26,430 nt of DNA from a virus, in IMG/VR virus record IMGVR_UViG_3300027728_000077, positions 1-26,430 of that record; one strand, written 5' to 3'. Below the pieces are notes generated by a model that was not told the origin of the DNA, did not search any database, and saw only the letters and a list, made by a program, of their open reading frames with translations. The position numbers and the translations under genes are program-made. Of the stretch, positions 1 to 26,378 are shown piece after piece (within the stretch, counting starts at the first letter, position 1; each line of letters opens with the position of its first letter).

Positions 1-200
1 TCCATCATGACGAGGCATTCCTCGGGGAAGTGGGCGACGATCCAATTCCGCACGGCACTCACCCCGCTGATCGCATCGGGAATCCCGACTTTCTCAAGCG
101 GGATGTGCGCGTAGCTGGCGATTTCGGATTCCGGCACAACGAGAGTGGCCGCCGGGAACAGTCGGTGCGTCGTGATCGAACGCTGACGGCTGCGGCTCAT
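1..200 (-). CDS. Partial glycosyltransferase-like phage protein, N-terminus only
   Basis: An open frame begins at the ATG whose first base is 200 and runs off the left edge without a stop (66 codons visible). The start reads MSRSRQRSITTHRLFPAATL and continues with VVPESE, then a segment ending in VRNWIVAHFPEECLVMM. The pattern 'hydrophobic-VVPESE ... IP ... AVRNWI ... VMM(D)' resembles the nucleotide-sugar-binding half of small phage glycosyltransferases, where an acidic DxD motif usually follows. The window ends just before that point, so the call rests on pattern memory only. It lies on the same strand as the ParB-like gene and the tRNA and may share their transcript. No TTGACA element lies at the usual distance upstream. 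It could also be an unrelated hypothetical protein. Confidence 0.55.
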   Translation of the reverse strand, partial: MSRSRQRSITTHRLFPAATLVVPESEIASYAHIPLEKVGIPDAISGVSAVRNWIVAHFPEECLVMM

Positions 201-245
201 GATCACGACACGGATTGAAATCGGACGGAGTTCGGGAAATTCCAC

Positions 246-269
246 AATGGTTGCAGGAATGGTTGCAGG
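246..269. repeat. Perfect 12-bp tandem repeat at the tRNA 3' end
   Basis: AATGGTTGCAGG occurs at 246-257 and again immediately at 258-269. On the - strand this is CCTGCAACCATT twice, that is the last acceptor bases plus CCA of the tRNA followed by a duplicate. A duplicated tRNA 3' end is the kind of scar left by integration or excision at a tRNA gene, but simple slippage would look the same. No third copy was found near the recombinase. Confidence 0.8.
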
Positions 270-334
270 GCCGGGAGTTGAACCCGGATTTGCGGGGTAT
301 GAGTCCGCCGTGACACCACTTTCACTACCCTGCG
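260..334 (-). tRNA. tRNA-Met-like (anticodon CAT), initiator-like mismatch
   Basis: Read on the - strand, the 75 nt fold as a cloverleaf. The acceptor is CGCAGGG with CCCTGCA (six pairs plus a C1.A72 mismatch). The D-stem is GTGA/TCAC with loop AAGTGGTG. The anticodon loop is CTCATAC. The T-arm is CCGGG-TTCAACT-CCCGG, followed by discriminator A and an encoded CCA. The C1.A72 mismatch is a hallmark of bacterial initiator tRNA. The anticodon stem has an A31.C39 mismatch and only two of the three usual initiator G:C pairs, and position 11:24 is T:A as in elongators. It may therefore be a phage-borne, degenerate or specialised Met tRNA. Its first 10 bases overlap the end of the ParB-like gene, whose TAG stop lies inside the tRNA. 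Confidence 0.75.
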
Positions 335-1002
335 GTTGGAGCTGGGGCGGCACTGGCCGCTTTTTGCGCGAGTTCAATGAGTCTTTTTCCATGGAGGACG
401 CGGCCGATGCCGATTTTCTTGGTTTTGCGAGTGATTGAATAATCCACTTCCTTCACGCCGATGAGTTGGAGCGCGAGCATCCAGTCCCGGAGATCATGGA
501 AGATGAACACGAGGTAGTCGTGGTGCTCGAATGCCTGGCATTCCATGCGCGGGATCGTTTCGAGGTCTTCGGCGGGATCTGCCTCGGCGAAAAGTTTGTC
601 GATCTCGTCTTGCATGAAGCCGGTGAGTTCGATGTCGAACGTGGGATCGCTCTCTCTCAATTTATCCACGACCCGCTTGAGATCGTCCTCGTCGAGTTCG
701 GCCAGTTCAGAAAGCCGGTTGTCGGCGAGCAGATCGGCCAGTTCCGCCGCCTCGGACTCGTAATCCTGGATGTCCACCGGCACAGTTTCGCAACCGATGA
801 GCAGGGCAGCTTCGAGACGGCCGTGCCCGCGGACGATCAATCCGCTGCGTTTGCTCACCGTGATTGGCGACCTCCACCCCTGTTCCTGGATGATTGCGGC
901 AAGGAGTTGGATCTGGTGGGCGCTGTGGCGGTTCGGGTTGACCGGGTTCGGTTTGAGTTTCCGGGGATCAACGAGCTGGTTATGGGAGCAGTGGACGGTC
1001 AC
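325..1002 (-). CDS. ParB-like nuclease-fold protein
   Basis: This 225-residue protein starts at GTG. The N-terminal part (about 10-95) has the ParB/Srx-like pattern: LKPNPVNPNRHSAHQIQLLA, then RSPITVSKRSGLIVRGHGRL and the GHGRLEAA core. A middle acidic segment includes LADNRLSELAELDED. The C-terminal part (about 150-225) is not recognised. Phage ParB-like proteins with this core often accompany DNA modification genes, but here the only neighbour seen is the possible glycosyltransferase. A TTGACA hexamer lies 20 nt upstream of the GTG on this strand, which supports the start and links the gene to the phage core set. The stop overlaps the tRNA by 10 nt. The role (DNA binding, nicking or regulation) is not shown by sequence alone. 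Confidence 0.85.
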   Translation of the reverse strand: MTVHCSHNQLVDPRKLKPNPVNPNRHSAHQIQLLAAIIQEQGWRSPITVSKRSGLIVRGHGRLEAALLIGCETVPVDIQDYESEAAELADLLADNRLSELAELDEDDLKRVVDKLRESDPTFDIELTGFMQDEIDKLFAEADPAEDLETIPRMECQAFEHHDYLVFIFHDLRDWMLALQLIGVKEVDYSITRKTKKIGIGRVLHGKRLIELAQKAASAAPAPTAG

Positions 1003-1015
1003 AGCCTCGCCAACG

Positions 1016-1033
1016 CTGTCAACCGCTTGACAG
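1016..1033. promoter_or_regulatory. Divergent palindrome CTGTCAA-CCGC-TTGACAG, candidate operator
   Basis: This is a perfect 7-bp inverted repeat with a 4-nt centre between two divergent genes. The - strand arm supplies TTGACA (1022-1017) 20 nt before the ParB-like start. The + strand arm supplies TTGACA (1027-1032), followed after 19 nt by TAGGAT (1052-1057), a possible -10 box just before the HTH gene. It could be the operator of the adjacent HTH protein. Confidence 0.5.
1017..1022 (-). promoter_or_regulatory. Start-proximal TTGACA element, ParB-like gene
   Basis: TTGACA on the - strand with its first base at 1022, 20 nt before the GTG at 1002. It is the only - strand case seen. Confidence 0.55.
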
Positions 1034-1064
1034 CCATGTGCGTGTCTCGCGTAGGATCGCCGCC

Positions 1065-1253
1065 ATGACGCGGAAGGAATTCCAACGGACGATCCAGCGC
1101 TGGCGGGCGAAAAATGGTTTCACCCAGCAGGGCGCCGCCGATCATCTCGGGATTTCCATCCGCACTCTCCAGAACTGGGAAATCGCCCGTAACATGCCCA
1201 ACGGCTATGGGCTCAAGGCAATCCTGCAGGTGATTTCAAGGCGCCTAAACTGA
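1065..1253 (+). CDS. Small XRE-family helix-turn-helix regulator
   Basis: Starting at the ATG at 1065 gives 62 residues; an in-frame GTG at 1038 would add nine poorly fitting residues. One HTH fills most of the protein: WRAKNGFTQQGAADHLGISI then RTLQNWEIARNMP, with the recognition helix around TLQNWE. This is the Cro/XRE pattern that often binds a symmetrical operator near its own promoter. The perfect palindrome at 1016-1033 lies just upstream and is the natural candidate target. The stop abuts the start of the LysE-family gene with no gap, so the two are probably co-transcribed. It may control the divergent ParB/tRNA unit or the exporter; whether it is the phage lysogeny regulator cannot be told. 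Confidence 0.85.
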   Translation: MTRKEFQRTIQRWRAKNGFTQQGAADHLGISIRTLQNWEIARNMPNGYGLKAILQVISRRLN

Positions 1254-24824: not shown

Positions 24825-26378
24825 TTACCTTGTACGTGCTTTTCCCCGCTTCCTGTTTTTCGCAGGCGAGGTTTTCTTCACTCGCCCAGGCTTATCCATT
24901 TTCCGTCTGGATACCGGCTCGCTCGAAAGAACCTCAATCGAACCGCCCTCCTCCGTATAGCGCACTTCCCTGCCATCGAAGGTTTTGACGGTAAACCAGC
25001 GTTCCTGCGGATGGACTTCAATTCGCTCGATGATCGCCCGGGCGTTTTCCTTCAGCTTTGATGCATCCCGCCAATCAACCTGCTCCAGATCCATGTCGGG
25101 GGCAGCGTTATCGACCTTCATCTCCGCAATCCGGCTCTCCAATTCCTTTTTTTCTGCTTCAAGCAGGCGGAGTTTTTCATGAGCCCCGGCCGAGAACCCA
25201 TCGGAAATAAAATCAACAAGCCGCGGAATCTTCGCCTCGATCTCGTCTTTGCGCTTGAGGGCGTCTTCCAATTCCTGATTCTGCTTTTTGGCCGATGGCG
25301 GGCATGTCGTGATGGCTTCGCAGGCGCCCATGAGGGCCTCCAAAAACCGGCCATAATGCCATGTGATGCGCGGAGCTGCTCCAACCGGGGCGGCGGCATC
25401 TACCAAATAGGAATAACCCCTCGCTTCATTGGAAACGAGCCGAATCATTTTCCGCCCGGTCATCACGTTGTAGAGCAGTCCCGCGATGGGGTTGCCTTGT
25501 CCCCGGCCCCGATACGATGACCTGATGCGGCGGATCCGCTGAACCGTGGAATACAAATCCATCGGGACCACGGCGGGGTAGTATCCCGGCACGGGGTCGC
25601 AGAGCACCCGCTTGCCGTCCACTGTGCGGGCCAGTTGAAACTCCCCAATCACGGCGCGGGAATCCAGGATGTTCTTGATACCTGTCGGATACCACCGGCT
25701 TCCTTTGCCCATTCTGGCGACCTTTTCTTTCTGAAAAACCTGGGCGATATGAAGCCCACCTTTGCCCTGCGCCGCCATCTGGAAGATCCGCTTCACGATC
25801 TTTGCCTTTTCGGGAATCACCTCAAACTTCTTCCGGTCGGCACTGAGTTTCAACCAGCCGGGGCACAAGGCGGTGATCTTCTCAGTCGTGGCCCGCCCTC
25901 GCTTCGCCTCCCACGCCTGCGTGCTCCGCATCGACTTGATCCGGCTTTCTTCGTTCGCCCGGCTCAGGATCGTCAGGCTGATGATCAGGTCTGTGAAATT
26001 TCCATCATTGATCCGCTTCTTGTCATAGACCCGCTCGTCGGCCAGCGTCACCACCACGATCCCGGCATTAATGATCCCGAGGAACATCTGCAGCGCATAC
26101 GTGATGTCGGTTCGGGACAGCCGGTCCAGGCTTTCCACGATCAGGTAGGAACCCGGCTCGATTGCCCCGGACTCCACCCGGCTCAGGAACGCCTTGAGCG
26201 CCCCCTTGTCCGCATTCTTGCTCCGGAATGCCGAGACCCCGAGGTCGCGGTAGTTCTCCACCAGCGGAATCCCGTTCTTCTGGCACCAGTTTTTCGCCAG
26301 CGTGGTTTGACGGCGCAGGGAGTCTCCGTGTATTTGGTCAGCAGTGGAAAACCTCAAATACGAATAGGCCTTATGCAT
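24825..26378 (-). CDS. Large serine recombinase (phage integrase)
   Basis: This 517-residue protein has an N-terminal resolvase-type catalytic domain: YSYLRFSTADQ with nucleophile Ser11, then GDSLRRQ and the VESLDRLSR motif. A Recombinase domain follows (CPGWLKLSADRKKFEVIPEK; AKIVKRIFQMAAQGKGGLHI), then a beta region around GLLYNVMTGRKMIR and a coiled coil (ELEDALKRKDEIEAKIPRLV; EAEKKELESRIAEM). Many large serine integrases carry a four-cysteine zinc ribbon in the region around GLLYNVMTG; here no CxxC pair is seen. It most likely integrates and excises this prophage at a site near the right edge. No excision factor was recognised. Confidence 0.93.
   Translation of the reverse strand: MHKAYSYLRFSTADQIHGDSLRRQTTLAKNWCQKNGIPLVENYRDLGVSAFRSKNADKGALKAFLSRVESGAIEPGSYLIVESLDRLSRTDITYALQMFLGIINAGIVVVTLADERVYDKKRINDGNFTDLIISLTILSRANEESRIKSMRSTQAWEAKRGRATTEKITALCPGWLKLSADRKKFEVIPEKAKIVKRIFQMAAQGKGGLHIAQVFQKEKVARMGKGSRWYPTGIKNILDSRAVIGEFQLARTVDGKRVLCDPVPGYYPAVVPMDLYSTVQRIRRIRSSYRGRGQGNPIAGLLYNVMTGRKMIRLVSNEARGYSYLVDAAAPVGAAPRITWHYGRFLEALMGACEAITTCPPSAKKQNQELEDALKRKDEIEAKIPRLVDFISDGFSAGAHEKLRLLEAEKKELESRIAEMKVDNAAPDMDLEQVDWRDASKLKENARAIIERIEVHPQERWFTVKTFDGREVRYTEEGGSIEVLSSEPVSRRKMDKPGRVKKTSPAKNRKRGKARTR

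Follow-up and report, generated by a model that had tools for sequence, protein, structure and literature searches.

The only tRNA gene found in this stretch of phage DNA appears to be an initiator-like tRNA-Met nested whole and in frame within a protein-coding gene, an arrangement in which each transcript would yield either the tRNA or two proteins. We put the probability of this working interpretation, taken jointly with membership of the tRNA in a class of initiator-like phage tRNA-Met genes with an open 1:72 position, at roughly 0.6. The window, i.e. the whole 26,430-base stretch of DNA analysed, is from a tailed phage with head, tail and integrase genes (Pfam/PHROG-type matches), and the one tRNA that ARAGORN finds in it is tRNA-Met(cat), 334..260 on the minus strand. 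A single stretch would here fill three roles, providing the last codons and the stop of a ParB-like gene, a tRNA gene, and a disordered N-terminal linker of a TAGT-type (TET-associated) glycosyltransferase.

The tRNA (260..334, minus strand) matches RF00005 over its full length (model positions 1-71 of 71; 51.1 bits, E 2.1e-8, gathering score 29) and folds as a cloverleaf, and on this sequence evidence it is a real tRNA. The initial annotation had described a CAT tRNA with a C1.A72 mismatch and a weakened anticodon stem, overlapping a ParB-like gene on the same strand, all of which is borne out by ARAGORN, by the covariance score and by the A31.C39 pair. Features that it did not mention are the U11:A24 pair in the D stem and the position of the whole tRNA in frame within the TAGT gene; the anticodon loop is CTCATAC and CCA is encoded. 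A low covariance score, which the annotation had given as the mark of a pseudogene, is not found in the intact lineage and applies to a sister set with an insert in the T arm, since L003, L005, L007 and L009 of that set give no RF00005 match at the gathering score. No sigma-70 type promoter was found in window positions 1-1200.

The ParB-like gene (325..1002, minus strand; 225 aa, GTG start) ends in TAG 327-325, which is T8-A9-G10 of the tRNA, so the stop codon does lie within the tRNA as had been proposed. Its product matches phrog_620 (ParB-like, 1.2e-32) and phrog_498 (DNA methyltransferase, 4.3e-39) and scores 22.4 bits against PF02195, under the cut-off of 26.3. The 5' part of the TAGT gene (3..392, minus strand), recognised as an ORF and from the relative L002, starts at ATG 392-390 and runs off the window. 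It overlaps the ParB gene by 68 nt, as in L002, and contains the entire tRNA in frame. The window holds the N-terminal 130 aa of TAGT only, and the PF20691 score (28.6 bits, cut-off 27.5, match from residue 61) is that of the full-length, 299-aa L002 protein. Read as TAGT codons, the tRNA stretch (261..332, minus strand) gives QGSESGVTADSYPANPGSTPGPAT, an N-terminal linker predicted to be disordered; in the structure model of L002 TAGT, a weak model (mean pLDDT 50.9) used for the disordered N terminus alone, residues 1-52 have pLDDT <50 and the first strand comes at 60-65.

Comparison with relatives suggests how the tRNA came to occupy this place. In 11 tRNA-less relatives TAGT starts at an ATG within the ParB gene (the same ATG in nine, a nearby one in L023 and L040), the overlap is 50-203 nt, and the start is followed by a short variable linker and then WPELRPLSLR or a variant; L021 has no such upstream ATG and has a GTG instead. 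In five tRNA forms the overlap is 29-68 nt, the start is the same ATG (a nearby one in L017), and the tRNA, read as QGSESGVTADSYPANPGSTPGPAT or a near variant, leads into FPELR. Because the tRNA replaces the variable linker between a common ATG and [WF]PEL, it must have been inserted into the TAGT linker or have arisen there. The overlap of the parB-like and TAGT genes is long in itself, reaching 203 nt in these relatives, and is out of phase. ParB is 218-226 aa long in the five tRNA forms and 256-270 aa in 10 of the 11 tRNA-less ones, L045 having 219.

With the ParB-like protein as query, 73 viral loci and 22 loci in bacterial genomes, all of which we take to be Verrucomicrobiota, were found. 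In 11 of the 73 viral loci (L002, L004, L008, L012-L018 and L026) ARAGORN places a tRNA at the corresponding junction. Eight more (L003, L005, L006, L007, L009, L010, L011 and L065) carry an 18-nt insert in the T arm with the stretch otherwise kept; in L007 a further 6 nt are missing from the D arm, and L009 has a broken acceptor pair. No tRNA is called in the other 54, of which a few end at the junction or are distant. Among the genome loci one of 22 has the tRNA, L089 in the Chthoniobacterales MAG VE1 (G001), and a search of 387 genomes of its phylum gave a full-length match in that MAG only. Scores of intact members with RF00005, where reported, are 48.1-53.1 bits; Rfam cmscan, when run with its fast filters, did not list the tRNA of L015, L016 or L089, although L016 and L089 otherwise score 50.4 and 50.8 bits. 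The T-arm insert adds a short hairpin, GTCCGAGCCGGAC, which is present in 11 of 110 loci, all of them T-insert contigs or copies. Within the ParB tree (27 rows), T-insert and intact forms are intermixed, the tRNA label and the T-insert label each requiring three changes, and the poorly resolved base (44/85) does not decide whether the tRNA arose once in the clade. The tRNA is dispensable, because eight of 73 loci carry an insert that destroys the cloverleaf, keep the frame and are mixed with intact forms in the tree.

Within the intact lineage, the pattern of change indicates that the tRNA is held by selection as an RNA. All 15 pairs of the acceptor, D and T stems are kept in all eight distinct intact sequences, as are the CAT anticodon, U33 and A73, and CCA is encoded in four of the eight. 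Identity of the tRNA between lineages (the window type, L015/L016/L089 and L017) is 0.84-0.90, against 0.48-0.60 at third positions of ParB; for the window and L017 the two values are 0.86 and 0.50. Two sets of four among the eight sequences differ at both positions of pairs 28-42 and 29-41, with 97.5% of cells paired. The covariation score, which relatedness can inflate, is reached by none of 500 shuffles and the number of both-side changed pairs (two) by 483 of 500; the covariation must be called modest, because there are two pairs only, both in one arm and perhaps produced by a single shift. Folding returns the exact cloverleaf in five of the eight distinct intact sequences and a cloverleaf with a rearranged anticodon loop in the other three, with z-scores of only -1.4 to -2.5. 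None of four T-insert forms folds as a cloverleaf, L005 being more stable than its shuffles (z -2.6) in another shape.

These data bear on the possibility, unlikely in our view but to be taken seriously, that the parB-TAGT overlap acquired a tRNA which has since gone out of use and survives as a tolerated linker of TAGT. The T-arm insert in eight of 73 loci, together with the D-loop loss in L007 and the broken acceptor pair in L009, would be expected of such a remnant, and the A31.C39 pair in four of the eight intact sequences (the other four having the full anticodon stem) and the predicted disorder of the linker are compatible with it. A useless linker would drift, however, as it does in the tRNA-less relatives, and it would not keep 15 of 15 stem pairs in every intact sequence while about half of the ParB third positions changed.

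The TAGT frame, judged by the same set of relatives, runs through the tRNA and is under coding constraint shortly after it. Between an ATG ahead of the tRNA and the LFP motif it is open in 14 of 14 sequences (the window and 13 loci), with no stop within the tRNA in any of seven distinct 73-nt forms. The linkers between the tRNA and FPEL (3, 6, 9, 15 or 21 nt), the T-arm insert (18 nt) and the D-loop loss (6 nt) are all multiples of three. By our own count there are at least six length changes behind the ParB stop, all of whole codons, for which a frame-blind chance would be about (1/3)^6 = 0.0014. Fourteen codons from FPEL to an ATG (198..239, minus strand; FPELRPISIRVVIM) do not fall within the ParB frame in the tRNA forms and precede the first common ATG. 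Here 13 distinct sequences differ by 352 synonymous and 79 non-synonymous single-base changes, against 38/396 and 4/392 (synonymous/non-synonymous) in the other two frames; these counts are pairwise, so that related sequences weigh repeatedly. Inside the tRNA the coding signal disappears, with 64 non-synonymous and 47 synonymous differences in the TAGT frame. It is therefore the RNA and not the peptide that sets the letters of the tRNA, and the argument for read-through is one from frame, start codons and flanks, not from codon bias.

In the window taken alone, TAGT may start behind the tRNA, at GTG 245-243 (243..245, minus strand), a possible alternative start that is absent in several relatives. 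If this were the actual start, nothing would be nested in practice and the tRNA would be intergenic, overlapping the ParB stop. A GTG just ahead of FPEL is also present in L002, L004, L007, L008 and the L009 type, with a TTG in L017/L018, and no Shine-Dalgarno sequence is evident before the upstream TAGT ATG. Seven intact loci (L012, L013, L014, L015, L016, L026 and L089), however, have no ATG, GTG or TTG from the start of the tRNA to the constrained FPEL, and the upstream ATG is common to most tRNA-less relatives, where constraint on the ParB frame may independently preserve that codon. A start behind the tRNA is thus rather improbable as the general rule.

If the tRNA is nested and used, its layout has a direct consequence: release of the tRNA must cut the TAGT message and remove the ParB stop. 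Excision would be by RNase P and 3' nucleases, and since the 5' cut parts the TAGT start from its body and leaves ParB without a stop, a given transcript could serve for the tRNA or for the two proteins, not both. We infer that this conflict is used as a switch, with, for instance, tRNA output at an early stage or under host stress. The probable role of the tRNA is to provide methionyl- or formylmethionyl-tRNA after damage to the host tRNA. According to one proposal (available portion of PMC10264068), tRNAs of phages stand in for host tRNAs that anticodon nucleases have cut, their loops being altered so as to evade the nucleases, and enteric VapC cleaves tRNAfMet between A38 and C39 (PMC4105405, seen as an excerpt). 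Position 38 is C in all eight clade sequences and A in tRNAfMet of the host MAG, and the C38 of the phage tRNA coincides with the A38/C39 cleavage site of VapC toxins in initiator tRNA. No general rule of nuclease evasion follows, because A38 is present in 33 of 62 members of the wider class among the matches listed (29 of 62 having another base) and because Shigella phages, in the accessible part of PMC10264068, generally avoid carriage of tRNA-fMet.

The cloverleaf could instead be a tRNA-shaped control element of the mRNA, a target for RNase P, MetRS or the ribosome that sets TAGT expression, the released RNA having no role in translation. It lies over the gene junction, its processing necessarily cuts the TAGT message, and a comparable repression has been proposed for selB-selC (PMC8124441, in the part available). 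The features of a translating tRNA are nevertheless kept (CAT, U33, A73, and CCA encoded in four of eight distinct sequences), and T-insert forms keep the TAGT frame open with no cloverleaf, which makes a purely regulatory RNA a doubtful explanation. A bolder extension of the nested either/or arrangement, for which we see a small chance, is that phages repeatedly place an initiator-like, nuclease-resistant tRNA-Met in the frame of an early gene, where translation and maturation compete, so that the tRNA would be its own sensor and cure. With good initiation, ribosomes would traverse the tRNA stretch and protein would be made; upon failed initiation (e.g. when a toxin has cut the host initiator tRNA) the bare RNA would fold and be processed to the missing tRNA. 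If that were true, two unrelated settings would fit, parB-TAGT and a group of Cro-like genes in which a tRNA of the same class as that of the window is in frame ahead of an ATGA overlap.

The class to which the tRNA would belong was sampled with a tRNA pattern fixing GCAGGG/CCCTGC, part of the T arm and CCA and leaving positions 1, 72 and 73 free. At least 80 loci gave 68 distinct sequences among the matches listed (one match at a contig edge was skipped), of which six without CAT were set aside and 62 with CAT were counted, one of them (L079) from the clade of the window. Among these listed matches, 55 of 62 lack a pair at 1:72 and none has G-C there; 42 have R11:Y24 (A11:U24 in 33), 15 have GGG/CCC at 29-31/39-41, and nine have all three hallmarks. 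Lack of a Watson-Crick pair at 1:72 is a hallmark of initiator tRNAs (PMC8576571, available text). One host MAG has 1:72 paired in 40 of 42 tRNAs from 30 fetched loci (some of the 42 being in a phage-type array); the two exceptions are a tRNAfMet and a tRNA-Met that has A.A there and shares the GCAGGG acceptor, and in view of the latter the class may have an elongator origin. The earlier designation of the window tRNA as initiator-type is upheld for the open C1.A72 pair and not for the other two hallmarks: U11:A24, which is common to all eight clade sequences, replaces A11:U24, and A31.C39 follows G29-C41 and G30-C40. The L015/L016/L017/L089 forms have C29-G41, G30-C40 and G31-C39. In sum, the tRNA resembles bacterial tRNAfMet in its CAT anticodon, unpaired 1:72, A73 and G30-C40, and differs in having U11:A24 for A11:U24, A31.C39 for the third G:C pair and C38 for the A38 of the host MAG.

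Lone tRNA-Met or tRNA-fMet genes are known in other phages, including phiLM21-like prophages (PMC12429752, portion available), BUCT566, RR1-A and Stenotrophomonas phage QDWS359 (annotated tRNA-fMet), which show BLAST similarity to the class. These share CAT, and three of them have an open 1:72, G.A in RR1-A and phiLM21 and C.T in BUCT566, but phiLM21 and RR1-A have another acceptor sequence, and in RR1-A, phiLM21 and BUCT566 the tRNA lies outside annotated protein genes; nesting as a rule for the class is not supported. ORFs of at least 60 codons whose start is 15 or more codons ahead of the tRNA read through it in frame 2 in 18, in frame 0 in 8 and in frame 1 in 1 of the 62 class members among the matches listed, counts that ignore kinship. 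The nested ORF of L202, used as query, found its own contig alone.

The nearest known system is selC (tRNASec) nested in selB ORFs of Alphaproteobacteria, which Mukai (2021) calls the first such case (PMC8124441, in the text available), and it was the sole published example of tRNA nesting in a bacterial ORF that our search of the open-licence literature found. In both cases a protein ORF encloses a complete tRNA of its own strand, some lineages have frame-keeping remnants, and tRNA processing is proposed to conflict with protein expression; some selB/selC relatives have a stop codon inside the tRNA, as ParB has in the window. In the accessible account of selB/selC, however, the genomes are bacterial and the tRNA extends the C terminus of its own elongation factor, whereas here a tRNA-Met of a phage lies near the N terminus, with more than 230 residues after it, of a protein that is not a translation factor. 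The present case thus differs in tRNA, protein, position within the protein and carriage by a phage; a different tRNA inside an unrelated protein suggests that nesting arises more than once. The intact and broken relatives make the conflict of processing with translation directly testable, in a virus family whose hosts are Verrucomicrobia bacteria and in which an RNA stretch would become tRNA or protein message, not both. The present case also exposes a class of phage tRNA-Met with open 1:72, which bears on why phages carry single tRNAs.

The duplication reported for the 3' end of the tRNA is exact: 12 bp, CCTGCAACCATT, with a first copy covering the tRNA 3' end (258..269, minus strand) and a second copy as in-frame PATI codons (246..257, minus strand), an in-frame four-codon duplication in the TAGT frame. 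It matches the window twice and nowhere else even when one mismatch is allowed (shuffle mean 0.12; two reached in 0 of 100 shuffles), and among 319 loci the tandem pair occurs in the window and one related contig only (L002/L086). The suggestion that the 12-mer might mark a prophage boundary found no support, the 12-mer being at the tandem alone within the window. tRNA genes are frequent phage integration sites, and the tandem at a tRNA 3' end could recall a host tRNA fragment serving as attP with the 12-mer as core, but such a scar is extremely improbable because the integrase (24825..26378, minus strand; PF00239, PF07508; phrog_95 integrase) is a large serine recombinase, the 12-mer is confined to the tandem and the MAG has no second copy of the tRNA (best other match 22 bases), and moreover the tRNA is whole and not a 3' half and, of 66 genomes matched at E 0.01 or better among the 387 of the phylum, only G001 matched over the full length. 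The other listed matches in that search were 19-41 bases long. Capture of the tRNA from the present host likewise received no support. There is a likeness to tRNA-dependent lysogeny, in which the tRNA of a temperate phage is important to the phage; that system, as described in the available part of PMC10865867, uses a tyrosine integrase and an attB located in a same-isotype host tRNA, and the serine recombinase of the window argues against it.

Larger sets of tRNA genes occur around this family. The T-insert contigs L010 and L065, probably one phage, have 18 tRNA matches each, including in L010 a C1.A72 tRNA-Met, and seven intact contigs and the window have the nested tRNA only. Replacement of the nested tRNA by an array is a tentative lead from this comparison, in which most contigs are partial, and several cases speak against it: no tRNA is matched in the T-insert forms L003 and L007, L035 combines an array with absence of the nested tRNA, and an array lies on another contig of the MAG that holds intact L089. 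ARAGORN finds 21 tRNA genes in L332 1-4101 (G397:C1:15600-19700), a relative of the window phage, and 16 in L151 (G001:C90:4500-8500), in the MAG of L089. Their T loop is GTGCRA in 17 of 21 and 14 of 16 genes, respectively, with TTCRA left in CAT tRNAs alone (two and one), one of which in L332 has C1.A72. U55 is near-universal in tRNA T loops, and GTGCRA has G there.

tRNA-Met genes also lie within or beside other phage genes. In the Cro-like group (L191, L198, L200, L223, L229, L231, L237 and L241) a tRNA-Met of the same class is in frame near the 3' end of the gene; by eye, there are five different HTH parts with one shared tail, and hairpin-like repeats follow the tRNA. No clear coding bias was found before or after the tRNA in these eight loci, and the frame ends in ATGA, likely the next start, in seven of them. 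In L183 (Erythrobacter phage vB_EliS_R6L) an unannotated tRNA-Met of the class lies at 1502-1578 between terminase and the next gene. In Pseudanabaena phage Pan5 (L333), an unannotated tRNA-Met at 1201-1273 overlaps the beginning of a gene annotated as a repressor (1215-1505), and a tRNA-Cys lies at 1566-1637. Finally, in Mesorhizobium phage vB_MseS-P1 the tRNA-Met at 1500-1574 of L184 is wholly within the annotated CDS of gp13 (1151-1651), on the same strand.
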